NCBI GenBank assembly: GCA_013538675.1
Contig: JACAFJ010000001.1
Location: 1 to 64,000, forward strand
Direction: 5' to 3'
DNA length: 64,000 nucleotides
DNA from: Candidatus Nitrosocaldus tengchongensis
GTDB lineage: Archaea > Thermoproteota > Nitrososphaeria > Nitrososphaerales > Nitrosocaldaceae
Part shown: in pieces, positions 37,317 through 44,572 of the stretch
How positions within the stretch are numbered: the stretch's first letter is position 1
How the letters are laid out: the number at the start of each line of letters is the position of its first letter
Translations under genes and position numbers: made by a program
The notes under the pieces: model-generated
Database searches by the model: none
What the model was told of the DNA's origin: nothing
What the model saw: only the letters and a program-made list of their open reading frames with translations

Positions 37317-37781
37317 ATGTCCCTACTGGTTGAGAGTAAGAGCAGGTACAGGATGGAACCAAGGCTAGAGGAGTTACTCTCCAAGTTTGAGCATGATGCT
37401 GAGCCCTATGATAGGCTTGCTGCATACTCTTTACTGCTCATACCCATAGGTGCTGTATTGATAGCATTGATGCTACTCCTAACAGGACCAATAACTATAG
37501 GCTGGAAGGTGTATCTGGCAATGGCATCAATAATGGCTCTACCCTTTGCAACCTATGCTATATCCCTTTACGCTGATAGGAAGAAGCACGAGATCTCTAA
37601 CAGCAAGTACAAACCTGTCACTGGCATGTGTATGTGCGATCTAAGTCAGTTAAGATACCATATGATAAGGTTCGAAAAGTCAGATAACTATGCAGAGAAG
37701 GCAAGGCATGCAAGGATGATGGAGTACTATGCAGAGAGGATAGGGTTAGGGCTCAATAGATGCTTGATATCAACTCGTTAA
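37317..37781 (+). CDS. Membrane protein of unknown function, 154 aa
   Basis: Seen: charged N-terminal part (RYRMEPRLEELLSKFEHDAEP), two transmembrane helices at about 38-60 and 66-88, then a cytoplasmic tail with three cysteines (GMCMCDLSQL, LNRC). No family recognised. Its 3' end overlaps the end of pyrI by 29 bases on the opposite strand. Confidence 0.6.
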   Translation: MSLLVESKSRYRMEPRLEELLSKFEHDAEPYDRLAAYSLLLIPIGAVLIALMLLLTGPITIGWKVYLAMASIMALPFATYAISLYADRKKHEISNSKYKPVTGMCMCDLSQLRYHMIRFEKSDNYAEKARHARMMEYYAERIGLGLNRCLISTR

Positions 37782-38223
37782 CCTCTAACATCCTACCGCA
37801 GTACCAACACCTCAATTTTTGTTTCTCCTTATCAAGCACCTCTATCCTACTTGCTATGCTCTTCTCTGCATTACTTATGCATGATGGGTTTGGGCAGTTG
37901 AAGACACCAACGAACCTATCTGGAAGATCGACCCTCCTCTTCTCCTTTACTTTGTACTCACTGATTATGTTTATAGTTGCCCTAGGTGCTATAAGCGCTA
38001 TCTTGTTGGTCTCATCTGCAGCAAGCAACCTGCCTTCTATCTTGATGATATCCTTCTTCCTTAGTTTTATACTTGGTACATTCATTGCTACAGTAACAAC
38101 ATTCCCCTCCTTGCCAGTTATGCCTAGAGCCTTGAGTACTAGCAGAGCCTTACCAGCATCTATATGGTCTATCACTGTGCCCTCCCTTATCCTCCTAACT
38201 AGGAGTTGCTCTTCTGTTGACAT
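37753..38223 (-). CDS. pyrI: Aspartate carbamoyltransferase regulatory subunit
   Basis: Allosteric subunit that binds nucleotides and couples to PyrB. Seen: N-terminal allosteric domain with IREGTVIDHIDAGKALLVL and a C-terminal zinc domain with Cys pairs in CPNPSC and CWYC. 156 aa is normal. It is divergent from pyrB with 40 bases between starts; this differs from the usual tandem pyrBI arrangement. Confidence 0.95.
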   Translation of the reverse strand: MSTEEQLLVRRIREGTVIDHIDAGKALLVLKALGITGKEGNVVTVAMNVPSIKLRKKDIIKIEGRLLAADETNKIALIAPRATINIISEYKVKEKRRVDLPDRFVGVFNCPNPSCISNAEKSIASRIEVLDKEKQKLRCWYCGRMLEVNELISSIY

Positions 38224-38263
38224 ACACTAATTGCATATATAGTGGTTTATAATCTTCTTGCTC
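38224..38263. promoter_or_regulatory. Divergent pyrI/pyrB promoter
   Basis: catatatag (38234-38242) is about 26 bases before the pyrB ATG at 38264, and gattataaac on the minus strand (38255-38246) is about 27 bases before the pyrI ATG. The two TATA boxes face each other within 40 bases, giving balanced leaderless transcripts. The placement also argues that pyrB begins at ATG 38264 and not at the TTG at 38258. Confidence 0.5.
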
Positions 38264-39196
38264 ATGGAGAACCCATTCCATAACAGGGATGTGATCTCAA
38301 TGAGGGATATAGCAAGGGATGAACTGGATATGCTCTTCACTACTACTGATAGGATAATGAAGATGAGCATGCAGGATAGACTTGATATATGCAAGGGTAA
38401 AGTGTTATGCTACCTCTTCTTTGAGCCAAGTACAAGAACAAGGTTGAGCTTTGAGGCAGCGATGGCATCTATAGGAGGCATAAGCATAGGTATAGCAAGT
38501 AGCAAGGAGTCATCCATGGAGAAGGGAGAGAGCCTAGTAGATACTGTAAGGGCGGTTGACTCTTATAGTGATCTTATAGTTATAAGGCATAGGTTGGATG
38601 GTGCAGCAAGGCTAGCAGCGGAGGTTGCTGAGAACCCTGTGATAAATGCTGGGAGTGGGGCAGAGGAGCATCCAACACAGGCAATGCTAGATCTATACAC
38701 AATACTGAAGGAGAAGGGCAGTATAGATGGGCTTAGGATAGGTATAGTTGGTGATCTGAAGTACAGCAGAACAGTATACTCTCTACTCTATGCCTTAAGC
38801 AAGTACAGTGTGGATGTGCATCTGATAGCACCACCATTGTTGAGGATAAGGAAGGAATCACTCTATGCGATAGACTCTTTGAGCATAAGGGAGCATGACT
38901 CGATAGATGAGGTTATAGATATGCTGGATGTGATATACGTTACAAGGATACAGAGGGAGAGGTTCCCGGATGTGCAGGAGTATGAGAAGGTGAGGCATAG
39001 TTACATCATAGATGCTAGAGTGCTAGCAAGGGCAAAGAGTGATGCCATAGTGCTCCATCCATTGCCTAGGGTAGATGAGGTGACATACGATGTTGATTCA
39101 GATGCAAGGGCAAGGTACTTCAAGCAAGTATCCTATGGCAAGGATGTTAGGGCAGCACTACTAGCATTGATCATTAATGCTACTCCCCCTGTATGA
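38264..39196 (+). CDS. pyrB: Aspartate carbamoyltransferase catalytic subunit
   Basis: Makes carbamoyl-aspartate, the committed pyrimidine step. Seen: carbamoyl-phosphate motif FEPSTRTRLSFE at about 50-61, the SSKESSMEKGES loop, HPTQAMLDLYTI and HPLPRVDE. About 310 aa, normal. Start chosen at ATG 38264 (MENPFHNRDV) because the family starts close to this and a TATA box is placed for it. Confidence 0.96.
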   Translation: MENPFHNRDVISMRDIARDELDMLFTTTDRIMKMSMQDRLDICKGKVLCYLFFEPSTRTRLSFEAAMASIGGISIGIASSKESSMEKGESLVDTVRAVDSYSDLIVIRHRLDGAARLAAEVAENPVINAGSGAEEHPTQAMLDLYTILKEKGSIDGLRIGIVGDLKYSRTVYSLLYALSKYSVDVHLIAPPLLRIRKESLYAIDSLSIREHDSIDEVIDMLDVIYVTRIQRERFPDVQEYEKVRHSYIIDARVLARAKSDAIVLHPLPRVDEVTYDVDSDARARYFKQVSYGKDVRAALLALIINATPPV

Positions 39197-39221: not shown

Positions 39222-39494
39222 TCAGTGCAGGTTGAATTCATAATCAGATAGCATCTGCTTTATCTTGCTGTAGAGCATGAGATACCTCTTCCCTTCATTG
39301 GTTATGATGAATGCTCTAGGGATATCTGGGGAGTATGTTATAAGCCCTGCATCTAGAAGCATATCCATGTACCTGTTCAGCATCCTTGTGTCTAGATTGC
39401 ACTTGCTGGCTATCTGCGTCTTGTGGAGTGCTCCTTCCCTCTCTAACGCTGTAAGTATATCTGCAACTATCTCGAACCTGTTCCTCTTATCCAT
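39222..39494 (-). CDS. Winged-helix DNA-binding protein
   Basis: 90 aa single-domain wHTH. Seen: NRFEIVADILTALER, then HKTQIASKCNLDTRMLNRYM (recognition helix region), a wing GLITYSPDIPRAFIITNEG and a C-terminal helix that may dimerise. This pattern is common in archaeal PF14947-type regulators. A perfect inverted repeat adjoins its start codon, suggesting autoregulation. Convergent with pyrB. Confidence 0.85.
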   Translation of the reverse strand: MDKRNRFEIVADILTALEREGALHKTQIASKCNLDTRMLNRYMDMLLDAGLITYSPDIPRAFIITNEGKRYLMLYSKIKQMLSDYEFNLH

Positions 39495-39668: not shown

Positions 39669-42329
39669 TCAACTGACTATACAACTGCTCCATCCACAGT
39701 TCATGCATGTATTGCAACCCTCAGCAAAGACCAACTTTGACTTGCAGAGCGGGCATAGAGCCTCGCCCTCACCAACTGTTGTAAGTGCATACCCTCTGCT
39801 GCTCTTCATCCTGTTACTCTTTAGTATAGCACCCTCTATCTCTCTAAGCAATGGACCATCCTTGACGTATCTCCTTATGTACTCTACCACATAGCTGCTT
39901 GGAACCACATCAAACCTCTTCACTCTACTCTCACCAGTTATGTGAAGAACCTGTTGCTGTCTTGAACCATCCCTGAATACAGTTATGCCCTTCAACCCTA
40001 GCTCATGAGCAAGAAGGTATGAGCACTTCACATCCTCAGCAGTAACATCATTTGGCATGTTTATGGTCTTTGCTATTGCATTGCTTATCCACCTCTGCCA
40101 TACAGTCTGAGCCATGACATGGTCTGCCCAATGTATATCCATTGCAGTTACGAATACCTTCTGCATCTCCTCTGGCACCCCATCAAGCCCTCTAACAGAG
40201 CCATAGTTCTCTGCTATCTTCTCAAGCAACTCATCGCTGTACATACCTGCCTTCTTCAACTCCTCCTCAAATATCCTGTTCGTGTAGTAGAACTTGCCAA
40301 CTGTTACATGCTTCTCATACACAAGTGCGAATGTAGGTTCTATACCTCCAGAGCAATCTGCTATCATGCTGAGTGTGCCAGTTGGTGCAACTGTAGTTGT
40401 CTGACTGTTCCTTATCCCATAGCGCTTAACCTTCTCTATAAGAGCATCCCAATCATGTGTATGCTCCTCCTTTGCAAGTTCATAGCAACCTGCAACTGGC
40501 AACTTACCTTGGATGTACCCACTCTCGTTGTAGAGTGGGAATGCCCCCCTAGACTTTGCTATCTCAACACTCTCATCCATGCTGTAGTATGTTAATGCCT
40601 CAGCAATCCTGTTCATAAGCTCATACCCTTCCTTGCTGTTGTATGGTATCCTTAGCATGTAGAGCAGATCAGCAAGACCCATTATCCCTAGCCCTATCCT
40701 CCTACTTGCCTTTGTAGCCTTATCTATCTCATCTATAGGGTACTTGCTAACATCTATTACATTATCAAGGAACCTAGTTGCAAGCCTTATAACCTGCTCA
40801 TACCTCTGCCAGTCGAACTCGTAACTTCCATCTGCCCTACGCTTAACCAATTTGGCAAGGTTTATCGAACCTAGATTGCAGGACTCATATGGGTAGAGGC
40901 TCTGCTCACCGCATGGGTTAGTTGCCCTTATGAGCCCTTGAACATCCTTCATCACATTGTATCTGTTCATGTTATCAAGGAATATCATGCCAGGTTCAGC
41001 AGATTGCCATGCACTTATCGCTATAAGTTCCATCATCTGCTGAGCATCTATATAACCTACTACCTTCCCATTTCTAGGATTTCTCAACGCATACTTCTCA
41101 CTGCTCTTCACAGCATCTATAAAGTCTGACCATACACCAACACTTACATTGAAGTTCTCTAACACCCCTGGCTTGGTCTTTGCTGTTATGAACTTCTCTA
41201 CATCTGGATGCCATACCTCAAGTATACCCATGTTTGCACCTCTCCTCTTGCCTCCCTGCTTAACCACCTCAGTGGTTGTATCTACTATGCGCATGAACGA
41301 TACTGGGCCAGATGCAACACCGCTTGTAGATGCAACTATATCGCCCTCTGGCCTAAGATTAGAGTAGTTTATCCCTACACCTCCACCAGACTTGAAGATC
41401 AGTGCAGCATCGGTAGCAGTCTTCATTATGCTTGCTAGATCATCGTGTATTGGGAGAACAAAGCATGCACTCAACTGACCAAGCCTTGCCCCTGCGTTCA
41501 TGAGTGTTGGGGAGTTTGGTAGGAAGTACATATCAACCATGAGCCTATAGTACTCCTCAACCCTCTTCTCATAAGCAGAGAACTCACCCTTCTCTAACAT
41601 GCCTAGCAGTTCATCTATGCCTACCTTCATCATTCCTTGTAGTGTTAGATCTTTGTAGAGTCTAAGCAGTGCTTCAATATGCCACTTGTTAAGCCCGTAC
41701 CTTCCTATGCTATACTTGCCATCTAACCCATCTAGGTTCTCAATGTACTCCTCAACCCTCTTCAGATCACCCCTCTTTAGCCTACCATCCAGCATGAAGA
41801 CTCTACCATCCCTAAGCATATCTGGTATTGCAATGAGTATAGCAACTCTCTCAAACATCTGCTTTGGACTCTCTACTATCTTACCATTCTCATCCCTGAG
41901 CAGGTACCTACTTGCTAGAACTCGTAAGGAGTTTGTGCTTAATGCCTTATCAACCTCATCCAGCCTGTTCCTTTCAAGTATCTTCATCTTCTCCTCCCTT
42001 ATCCTCCTCCTCTCATGCCTGTAGAGTATGTATGCCTTGGCAGTATCTGCCAGACCCTCATCTATCAGCACAGTCTCAACTATATCCTGAACATCCTCAA
42101 CCCCTGGTATGTTGCTTACATCGAACCCCTGCTTGATCAGCCTCTGCACAACCTTCTCTGCAAGCCTCTCAGCGAGGGAATAGTCTGGCCTCTTAGTAGC
42201 AAGAAGGGCCTTGTATATAGCATTGGTTATCTTTGATGTCTGGAACTCAACAATGCTACCATCCCTCTTCCTTATCTTGCCTATAGCACTGGCTAGATCT
42301 TGAGGCTTCACATCTGTACTATCCTTCAT
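39669..42329 (-). CDS. nrdJ: Adenosylcobalamin-dependent (class II) ribonucleotide reductase
   Basis: Reduces ribonucleotides to deoxyribonucleotides with a B12 radical, independent of oxygen. Seen: N-terminal ATP-cone (about 15-110, IRKRDGSIVEFQTSKITNAI) for allosteric activity control, the catalytic barrel with LSACFVLPI, NPCGEQSLYPYESCNLGSIN (radical-site Cys), PTGTLSMIADCSGGIEP, and a C-terminal zinc-type tail CPLCKSK...CNTCMNCGWSSC. 886 aa is normal. A wHTH/ATP-cone/NrdD-like gene ends 67 bases upstream on the same strand, and its own promoter lies in that gap. Confidence 0.95.
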   Translation of the reverse strand: MKDSTDVKPQDLASAIGKIRKRDGSIVEFQTSKITNAIYKALLATKRPDYSLAERLAEKVVQRLIKQGFDVSNIPGVEDVQDIVETVLIDEGLADTAKAYILYRHERRRIREEKMKILERNRLDEVDKALSTNSLRVLASRYLLRDENGKIVESPKQMFERVAILIAIPDMLRDGRVFMLDGRLKRGDLKRVEEYIENLDGLDGKYSIGRYGLNKWHIEALLRLYKDLTLQGMMKVGIDELLGMLEKGEFSAYEKRVEEYYRLMVDMYFLPNSPTLMNAGARLGQLSACFVLPIHDDLASIMKTATDAALIFKSGGGVGINYSNLRPEGDIVASTSGVASGPVSFMRIVDTTTEVVKQGGKRRGANMGILEVWHPDVEKFITAKTKPGVLENFNVSVGVWSDFIDAVKSSEKYALRNPRNGKVVGYIDAQQMMELIAISAWQSAEPGMIFLDNMNRYNVMKDVQGLIRATNPCGEQSLYPYESCNLGSINLAKLVKRRADGSYEFDWQRYEQVIRLATRFLDNVIDVSKYPIDEIDKATKASRRIGLGIMGLADLLYMLRIPYNSKEGYELMNRIAEALTYYSMDESVEIAKSRGAFPLYNESGYIQGKLPVAGCYELAKEEHTHDWDALIEKVKRYGIRNSQTTTVAPTGTLSMIADCSGGIEPTFALVYEKHVTVGKFYYTNRIFEEELKKAGMYSDELLEKIAENYGSVRGLDGVPEEMQKVFVTAMDIHWADHVMAQTVWQRWISNAIAKTINMPNDVTAEDVKCSYLLAHELGLKGITVFRDGSRQQQVLHITGESRVKRFDVVPSSYVVEYIRRYVKDGPLLREIEGAILKSNRMKSSRGYALTTVGEGEALCPLCKSKLVFAEGCNTCMNCGWSSCIVS

Positions 42330-42396: not shown

Positions 42397-44520
42397 TTAT
42401 TTGATACTTATAAGATGTGCCTTGCAGTTAGGACATCTATTTGCATTAATACTACTATTATCCATAACAGTGCTAGTTGCAGTATTGAACTTTGAGCCAC
42501 ACCTGCTGCAGATCCTTGCACCCTTGCTTACTATCCTGAAGAAACCAAACCTATTCATAGCATCGCTTACAGCATTCCTTGCCATGGCAGGGGTTACATT
42601 ACTTATATCTAAGGTTATAGTCATGCCTCCATCAAATATATTGCTCAACTCTATAATCTCATCGTAGTAATTAGCATCTAGATTAGGTATATCCTCTGCA
42701 TGCACCTCCATCCCCTGCATGTAATCACTCCCACCAGTAGGTAACTTGCCATACCTCTCGCCATCTAGTCTAGCAAGCCTAGATGCACCCCCATCATCTA
42801 TCATAGCTATGCTTATAGCATAACCCATCTCTCTACTCTTATCTACAAGGGTTCTTCTAACCTTCCTTGCCACATCTACTATATCATCCTGCTTAAGAAC
42901 ATTCGAGATGGATGATGGCAGATCTACCATGTTTATAACCATGTTAGTAGTAGTGGTAGTATCCATCCCATTACTATCATCAGAGATGAGGGGGAGTATG
43001 TACTTCAGAGACTCCATGATCATAACCCTCCTTGCTGTTAGTGCTGTTACTATGGGCTTGAGGAGTAATGCAAGTCTTGCCCTAAAGTATACCTCATCGT
43101 TATTAGACTCATATGCAAGTCTGGGCAGGTTCATTGAGAGTGAGTGTAGCACAAGGCTTCCATACTCATCCTTGCAGATGAGACCCTTTGATCCTGCAAG
43201 CGTATTGCTTAATGCTATCGATCCACCTATGGATGAGATATCTACTATCTTATCTACATACTCAGCAAGAAGATCATCATTATTACCATCACCGTGATGA
43301 TGATTATTATTGCTAGGAAGCACCATAGAGATTCTAGGTAGTTGAGTATGCTTCACATAGTAAGCATAGCCATCTAGCAGTTCACCAATCATACTCTTAT
43401 TAAATCCATTAAAGACAAACGATATTCTCGAGTCTGTCATAGAGGCTATGAGCATAAGCATTCTAGCAAACCCATCGCTTGTAATCCTTATCCTGCCTGT
43501 ATTAGACTCGTAATCCAGCATATCTGTTATGCCATGTACCACTACCTCCTCTGCTGCGTATCTACCAAGGATGCTGCATAACATGCTAACCTTGATTAAC
43601 GGATCATCCATCCCATCTATACCATATAACCTTAGCCTATTATTGCTGCTACTACTGCTACTGTTACTACTACCACTATTGTTGTTGTCAAGTAACTCTT
43701 TAATGTTAGCGAATATGGTATCTGGCATCACGCCCCAACGGCTTATGTTTGCTATATTTATATCCCCTGAGAGGTGCAGGTCTGCCACATCCTTTGGTAT
43801 TGTATGGAAGAGATAATACTCCTTCAGCAGTACATCAACCATACTGCTTACCATCAAGCCTATATCGTTACCATTCTTATCAGCCAGCATGCTAGTCATC
43901 TCTGCCAATGGTATCCCTATGGTAGAGAACCTACTCCTGTAATCCTCATAACCATGCTCCAAAAGTATAGAGCATACTATGTCCCTTACTAGTGGTGTTG
44001 TAAGGTATACACCTTGCATCCTATGAACCTTATTCTCAACCTCCTCACTTATCTTCTGTGCAAGTTCTGGTGGCATGTTGGTCTCTCTAACTAGGGATTG
44101 GGTTATCTTGTGGGCATTGAACTCCTCCATCCTGTCCTTCGTCCTTACATATATATTCCCGCTCTCCATGATCGACCTCTCCTCTATCTGCCTTGTTAGG
44201 TTAAGTATGAGTTTACCCTTGTTGGTTATAACATACTTCCTCTCAGCCCTGTTGAGCGCTACAAGTGAGTGCTTCAAGAGCTTCCTTAGATGGTAGGCGA
44301 ACTTGCCACTCTCCTTCTTCGATCTGAAACCTACCTGTGCCTTAAGATCTGAGTATGTTAGTGAGCCTTTAGAGTTGAGTATCCTTAGTATATCTATCCT
44401 GTTAGGATTTGCCATAACAGAGAATATCATCTTTACACGCCTAGAGACTGGCTCAATGCTATTACCACTACTACTGCTGCTGTTATCATCTCTCTCAGCA
44501 TAATCACTTGTTAAGCCCAT
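42397..44520 (-). CDS. wHTH + ATP-cone + inactive NrdD-like fusion protein, putative RNR regulator
   Basis: Domains: ArsR-type winged helix (about 25-105, MANPNRIDILRILNSKG), ATP-cone (about 120-205), then a divergent class III ribonucleotide reductase body (about 215-707). NrdD signature DVADLHLSGDINIANIS at 244-260 is present. The segment that carries the thiyl Cys in real enzymes (PNC) reads MPDT at 265-268. The C terminus keeps a four-Cys zinc site (671, 674, 696, 699) and stops 8 residues later, without the glycyl-radical RVxGYL loop. It is therefore probably catalytically dead. A Ser/Asn low-complexity tract lies at 278-295. Inferred role: sense (d)NTP through the ATP-cone and control nrdJ. 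Confidence 0.8.
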   Translation of the reverse strand: MGLTSDYAERDDNSSSSSGNSIEPVSRRVKMIFSVMANPNRIDILRILNSKGSLTYSDLKAQVGFRSKKESGKFAYHLRKLLKHSLVALNRAERKYVITNKGKLILNLTRQIEERSIMESGNIYVRTKDRMEEFNAHKITQSLVRETNMPPELAQKISEEVENKVHRMQGVYLTTPLVRDIVCSILLEHGYEDYRSRFSTIGIPLAEMTSMLADKNGNDIGLMVSSMVDVLLKEYYLFHTIPKDVADLHLSGDINIANISRWGVMPDTIFANIKELLDNNNSGSSNSSSSSSNNRLRLYGIDGMDDPLIKVSMLCSILGRYAAEEVVVHGITDMLDYESNTGRIRITSDGFARMLMLIASMTDSRISFVFNGFNKSMIGELLDGYAYYVKHTQLPRISMVLPSNNNHHHGDGNNDDLLAEYVDKIVDISSIGGSIALSNTLAGSKGLICKDEYGSLVLHSLSMNLPRLAYESNNDEVYFRARLALLLKPIVTALTARRVMIMESLKYILPLISDDSNGMDTTTTTNMVINMVDLPSSISNVLKQDDIVDVARKVRRTLVDKSREMGYAISIAMIDDGGASRLARLDGERYGKLPTGGSDYMQGMEVHAEDIPNLDANYYDEIIELSNIFDGGMTITLDISNVTPAMARNAVSDAMNRFGFFRIVSKGARICSRCGSKFNTATSTVMDNSSINANRCPNCKAHLISIK

Positions 44521-44542: not shown

Positions 44543-44572
44543 TATTAAAATACCTATGTAAAATAGTTTTAC
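44543..44572 (-). promoter_or_regulatory. Promoter and inverted repeat of the NrdD-like regulator gene
   Basis: Minus-strand TATA-like ggtattttaata (about 44554-44543) is about 26 bases before the ATG at 44520. Directly upstream is a perfect inverted repeat gtaaaa-tag-ttttac (44558-44572), at about -38 to -52, the same relative place as the repeats before nrdJ. Confidence 0.45.

Follow-up and report, generated by a model that had tools for sequence, protein, structure and literature searches.

We propose that the 707-amino-acid protein encoded at positions 42397..44520 on the minus strand of the window (the whole stretch of DNA that was analyzed, 64,000 nucleotides in length) is a nucleotide-sensing transcription regulator dedicated to ribonucleotide reductase (RNR), that is, an analogue of NrdR descended from a reductase. 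We consider this reading likely, with a probability of about 0.72; it is inferred, in the absence of DNA-binding, nucleotide-binding or expression data. The open reading frame is intact, and in its product a winged helix (wHTH) is followed by an ATP-cone and then by the body of a class III ribonucleotide reductase (NrdD). The gene lies directly upstream of nrdJ on the same strand, separated from it by a gap of 67 nt; this position had been reported in the preliminary description and held. The proposed target, nrdJ (39669..42329, minus strand), encodes an adenosylcobalamin-dependent class II RNR with an ATP-cone (42006–42278, minus strand). No second NrdD was found in the window genome, and NrdJ is thus the sole RNR found there. 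Archaeal amoA is present in the same genome; therefore, the organism is an ammonia-oxidizing archaeon.

The domain content claimed by the preliminary description (an ArsR-like wHTH, an ATP-cone, and a NrdD-like body) was shown to be correct by Pfam and fold searches, with all of the Pfam matches that follow above their curated cut-offs. The ArsR-like winged helix was assigned to residues 27–118 (44167..44442, minus strand) from matches to PF24038 (2e-11) and PF12840 (7e-7) at residues 32–106, together with column identity and dN/dS; the recognition helix region lies at about residues 62–84. The ATP-cone occupies residues 122–205 (43906..44157, minus strand) and matched PF03477 at residues 128–197 (4e-9; 37.3 bits against a cut-off of 25.8), as did 20/20 and 18/18 relatives (E ≤ 0.01). 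The NrdD-like barrel body, which lacks catalytic residues, spans residues 206–664 (42529..43905, minus strand). It was defined by PF13597 (7e-9, residues 452–701), by profile matches that include solved NrdDs, and by fold search. An AlphaFold model of the protein (pLDDT 81.6) had the class III RNR fold, and 32/32 of its best PDB matches were NrdDs (E down to 1e-16), followed by NrdR (9a6n_B, 2.5e-3) and then by the winged-helix regulators MntR, AntR (6uvu) and MarR. The four-Cys zinc site of the former glycyl-radical domain (C671-x2-C674...C696-x2-C699; 42424..42510, minus strand), with the chain ending eight residues later, was also as originally described. The body contains homopolymer-like insertions of Ser, Asn, His and Thr at about 43630–43680, 43275–43310 and 42970–43000 of the window, and these differ in length among congeners.

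Loss of the catalytic residues was shown by alignment with intact archaeal NrdDs. In the intact NrdDs of related genomes, the second active-site Cys lies in RPFCQEHDLR, the thiyl Cys in SQCCRL or YQCCAY, and the glycyl motif reads SRVTGYY. In the window protein these two Cys positions are occupied by Thr268 (43717..43719, minus strand) and Leu447 (SKG-L-IC; 43180..43182, minus strand), which we take to be the positions of Cys79 and Cys290, respectively, in T4 NrdD. The chain stops before the glycyl loop. The assignment of the thiyl site to 'MPDT' in the preliminary description therefore failed, because MPDT (T268) is the Cys79 position and the thiyl site is Leu447. Its view of the reductase as dead held, since all three radical residues are absent. 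A downstream frameshift restoring RVxGYL, which would have refuted that view, was not found, and no RVxGY motif was seen in any frame of the 67-nt gap before nrdJ when it was read by eye. A Cys at the thiyl site, the other such refuter, did not occur in the window's order. C449, two residues beyond Leu447, was considered as the thiyl Cys and rejected, because a congener (L035) has Ser there and the Cys is not conserved.

In motif-anchored counts over 117 wHTH forms, no Cys occurred at the Cys79 position (0/117), and R[VI]xGY was absent from the last 80 residues of all 117; canonical radical reduction is thus excluded in the forms examined. The thiyl position was Cys in 24/117, all outside the window's order, and elsewhere was mostly I, L, V, F or T. 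The forms that keep this Cys (L065, L123, L133, L175 and others) mostly read GC[RK] there and lack Cys79 and the glycyl motif. N464, P466 and R467 of the NLPR motif were invariant in both the intact NrdDs and the wHTH forms. We infer, from sequence alone, that the window protein is very likely catalytically dead.

Selection on the wHTH was shown by two measures. Among 20 orthologues from the order, mean pairwise column identity fell from 0.86 in the wHTH (0.91 in residues 62–84) through 0.69 in the ATP-cone to 0.39 in the body. In close pairs, dN/dS (Nei-Gojobori) was 0–0.035 for the wHTH, 0–0.21 for the ATP-cone and 0.04–0.31 for the body. It is likely that selection keeps DNA binding first and the ATP-cone next, although this too is an inference from sequence.

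A full-length orthologue or its fragments were present in 74/74 sampled genomes of the order (the window genome included), and in 72 of them it directly preceded an RNR gene of the same strand; the two exceptions have broken contigs. A lack of conserved linkage to nrd genes in relatives, which would have counted against the preliminary description, was thus not observed. One orthologue (L049, in the single-contig genome G311) is split into ORFs of 492 and 184 amino acids by a frameshift or a sequencing error. Across the phylum, a search of 398 genomes gave a match in 281, although some of the weaker matches may represent different proteins with an ATP-cone or a wHTH. A contig search kept 80 loci, nearly all labelled as Bathyarchaeia; phyla other than the window's were outside that search. 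The gene was not found to be carried by viruses in IMG/VR.

Outside the order, proteins with the wHTH architecture mostly scored 170–320 bits against PF13597, and in many genomes they occurred alongside an intact NrdD scoring 330–680 bits. Position before RNRs of two classes was shown directly. The wHTH form lay directly upstream of an intact nrdD in 5/5 genomes examined of family f27 (G059, G154, G276, G073, G271), in 5/5 of f37 (G106, G305, G243, G118, G368), and in one genome each of f41 (G142) and f57 (G313), and it was upstream of an nrdJ of an unrelated subfamily in G019 (f18). The same gene pair was found in Bathyarchaeia loci L159, L163, L167, L168 and L172, 213–898 nt apart. The RNR behind the regulator in L046 (G338) and L058 (G019) is a different NrdJ subtype with a TSCPD domain and no ATP-cone. 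The regulator keeps its ATP-cone in these two genomes although the linked NrdJ has none; most of the tested NrdJs of the order carry their own. No RNR gene adjoins the wHTH gene in sampled members of family f5 (Bathyarchaeia) or of many other families. This counts against an RNR-dedicated reading, and it is possible that the target differs in those families or that regulation there acts in trans. When 68 proteins were placed in a tree, a branch with SH-aLRT support of 99 set the wHTH forms apart on one side. A single origin of the wHTH form fits this tree; the branches are long, and placements within the wHTH clade are unsure.

The gene pyrB was the most conserved neighbor of the wHTH gene outside the order, being nearby in 73/96 loci and convergent within 300 nt in 62. 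It is also downstream of nrdJ in the window, separated from it by a 90-amino-acid winged-helix-like ORF (39222–39494, minus strand) that, among 20 order loci checked, occurred only in the four congeners. In the window (37753–39196) and in L053–L182, most loci have pyrB facing either the regulator or the RNR gene that follows it, in convergent orientation and often with pyrI beyond; this pyrimidine and dNTP neighborhood is conserved across Bathyarchaeia and ammonia oxidizers. In f27 and f37 loci (L065, L060), what separates the regulator from the convergent pyrB is nrdD. The regulator-pyrB locus is likely one and the same throughout, with an RNR slot that holds nrdD, holds nrdJ, or is empty.

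NrdR has been described as an ATP-cone regulator that is rare in archaea. Its absence from the window's order was shown by a search with TIGR00244, which found no match above cut-off in any genome of the order, the window genome included; the window protein itself had no TIGR00244 match. True NrdR (above cut-off) was present in 35/398 genomes, of which f5 accounts for 34. In f5 the RNR slot of the wHTH gene is empty and nrdD is elsewhere, with NrdR directly upstream of it wherever both were mapped (G281, G190, G328, G130, G172 and G285). In the sole NrdR genome outside f5, G305 (f37), one nrdD follows NrdR and a second follows the wHTH form. Residues V48, K50, R51, E56 and K62 of NrdR contact nucleotides or are needed for their binding (PMC9110341). 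When the sequences were matched by hand, K50, E56, F58 and K62 corresponded to R126, E132, F134 and K138 of the window protein, and R51 corresponded to T127. Intact NrdDs L083 and L084 share this VRT variant, which is therefore not a sign of decay. The outer-site aromatic (Tyr83 of PcNrdD) is not conserved; with Thr at the R51 position, this means that nucleotide binding is possibly altered, a point against the proposed reading.

A candidate operator or promoter element, TTTTACATAGGTATTTTAAT, with a TATA-like TTTTAAT, was identified by conservation at 44544..44563 (minus strand), −24 to −43 from the regulator start codon. It matched at 19–20/20 positions in the four congeners and at 17–18/20, with the same spacing, in three genomes of f3, which we take from their relationships to be Nitrososphaeraceae-like; these three lack the window's divergent ferritin-like neighbor. 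The window genome and three of the congeners each contain no other perfect match, and the remaining matches, with three mismatches, were at control level. In genomes of f2, taken on the same grounds to be Nitrosopumilaceae-like, a different element, TARYGGTGTNAAN5TTGA, lies upstream of nrdJ inside a longer conserved stretch, and all but one of its mismatch-free matches in 16 genomes were upstream of nrdJ. That stretch (L009–L032) reads TATGAAnTTCATAGTARCGGTGTYAAnAAnnTTGA, is nearly unique per genome, and appears DNA-like rather than RNA-like. An RNA element before nrdJ in f2 was considered and rejected, as there was no consensus RNA fold and no Rfam match beyond tRNAs. One operator common to all lineages was also rejected, because the f1/f3 element scored at chance level in f2 genomes; the lack of a shared operator counts against the proposed reading. 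Each consensus was drawn from its own sites, and without binding data the two elements can be regarded only as possible sites for the regulator.

On the proposed reading, an NrdD with an ATP-cone would have acquired an N-terminal ArsR-like winged helix in an ancestor within this archaeal group, and would have lost Cys79 together with the glycyl-radical loop; the lineage of the window would also have lost the thiyl Cys. The body may now serve as a scaffold, probably dimeric, that presents two winged helices; this oligomeric state is inferred. Nucleotide status would be read by the ATP-cone and perhaps also by the dNTP specificity site of the body. When dNTPs are plentiful, the protein would probably bind its own promoter and that of the linked nrdJ or nrdD, lowering RNR expression, in parallel with dATP/ATP-loaded NrdR of bacteria. 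The parts of this scheme are not equally secure. That the protein is a DNA-binding regulator is likely, as is its action on the linked RNR, but the binding and the identity of the target are inferred without DNA-binding or expression data. ATP/dATP as the signal is favored by only a modest margin, given that there are no nucleotide-binding data. Repression is slightly preferred over activation, again without expression data, and the cost of a nearly full-length NrdD body argues against a plain repressor. The analogy to NrdR drawn in the preliminary description is thus supported, with DNA binding, ATP/dATP sensing and repression remaining inferred. It is reinforced by the pairing of the gene with RNRs of two classes, among them no fewer than two NrdJ types, the absence of NrdR from the order, the constraint on the wHTH, and the genome-unique promoter element.

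One rival explanation is that the protein is an allosteric partner that tunes the activity or specificity of NrdJ or NrdD, its winged helix being an ancillary module for DNA tethering or dimerization. The one-to-one linkage with RNR genes favors it, as does the lack of an ATP-cone in the linked NrdJ of G338 and G019, where control of activity could come from a separate cone; in addition, ATP-cones in RNRs act through oligomers (PMC11226230). However, the wHTH with its recognition-helix region is by far the most constrained part while the body drifts, whereas an interface with NrdJ would predict the opposite; the RNRs that the wHTH form precedes belong to two classes that differ in their surfaces; and most tested NrdJs of the order already possess a cone. 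We regard this explanation as unlikely. Equally unlikely, in our view, is a regulator of wider nucleotide metabolism, such as pyrimidine synthesis, for which adjacency to nrdJ reflects only a shared neighborhood. The conservation of pyrB nearby, in the window and outside the order, supports it, but pyrB is convergent, so that it and the regulator have no promoter in common, and the same-strand downstream slot holds RNR genes, not pyrB, and does so with two RNR classes.

A divergent but active reductase that uses other radical chemistry is all but excluded. The complete fold, the thiyl Cys in 24/117 forms and the invariant NLPR can be cited for it. Against it are the loss of Cys79 in every form, the lack of a glycyl motif, the Leu at the thiyl site of the window protein with no Cys there in the order, the fast evolution of the body, and the presence of an intact NrdJ or NrdD alongside.

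The reading of the protein as an RNR-dedicated regulator points to a specific candidate for the control of dNTPs in ammonia-oxidizing archaea, a group in which slow growth and the replication of DNA bear on the nitrogen cycle. The family further looks like a clear example of an essential enzyme that has turned into the regulator of the pathway to which it belonged; some genomes carry an intact and a dead paralogue next to each other. In a bolder form, toward which we remain more doubtful than convinced, these proteins would be phylum-wide archaeal factors that arose once from an RNR, kept the whole allosteric enzyme (ATP-cone and dNTP specificity site) as a sensor, and take the place of NrdR in lineages that lack it; such a sensor could respond to the total dNTP supply as well as to single dNTPs. 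No description of a wHTH-pseudo-NrdD protein was found in the open-access literature searched; subscription papers and preprints were outside the search.

Among known systems, the window protein resembles class III NrdD (TIGR02487, PF13597) in its fold, zinc site and NLPR motif, and it shares an ATP-cone type (VRTS..) with intact archaeal NrdDs. Unlike NrdD, it has an N-terminal winged helix and lacks Cys79, the glycyl-radical loop and, in the window lineage, the thiyl Cys; its score against the class III model was 37.9 bits, below the cut-off of 326. With ArsR/SmtB-type regulators it shares the N-terminal wHTH, and its structural neighbors after the RNRs include AntR (6uvu), MarR and MntR; it differs from them in its proposed RNR-derived sensor body and scored 26.9 bits against HTH_metalloreg (NF033788), for which the cut-off is 55. 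The likeness to NrdR, a repressor of RNR operons built of a Zn ribbon and an ATP-cone, lies in the combination of a DNA-binding head with an ATP-cone, in the location of the gene directly upstream of nrdD or nrdJ, and, less securely, in the inner-site and K62 nucleotide-contact residues, which were largely matched by hand. In contrast to NrdR, an ArsR-like winged helix replaces the Zn ribbon, a pseudo-NrdD body of about 500 residues follows the winged helix, and the phylogenetic distribution is complementary. The window protein thus resembles NrdR in its proposed function, yet it stands outside both NrdR, having no Zn ribbon or model match, and NrdD, having no catalytic residues.
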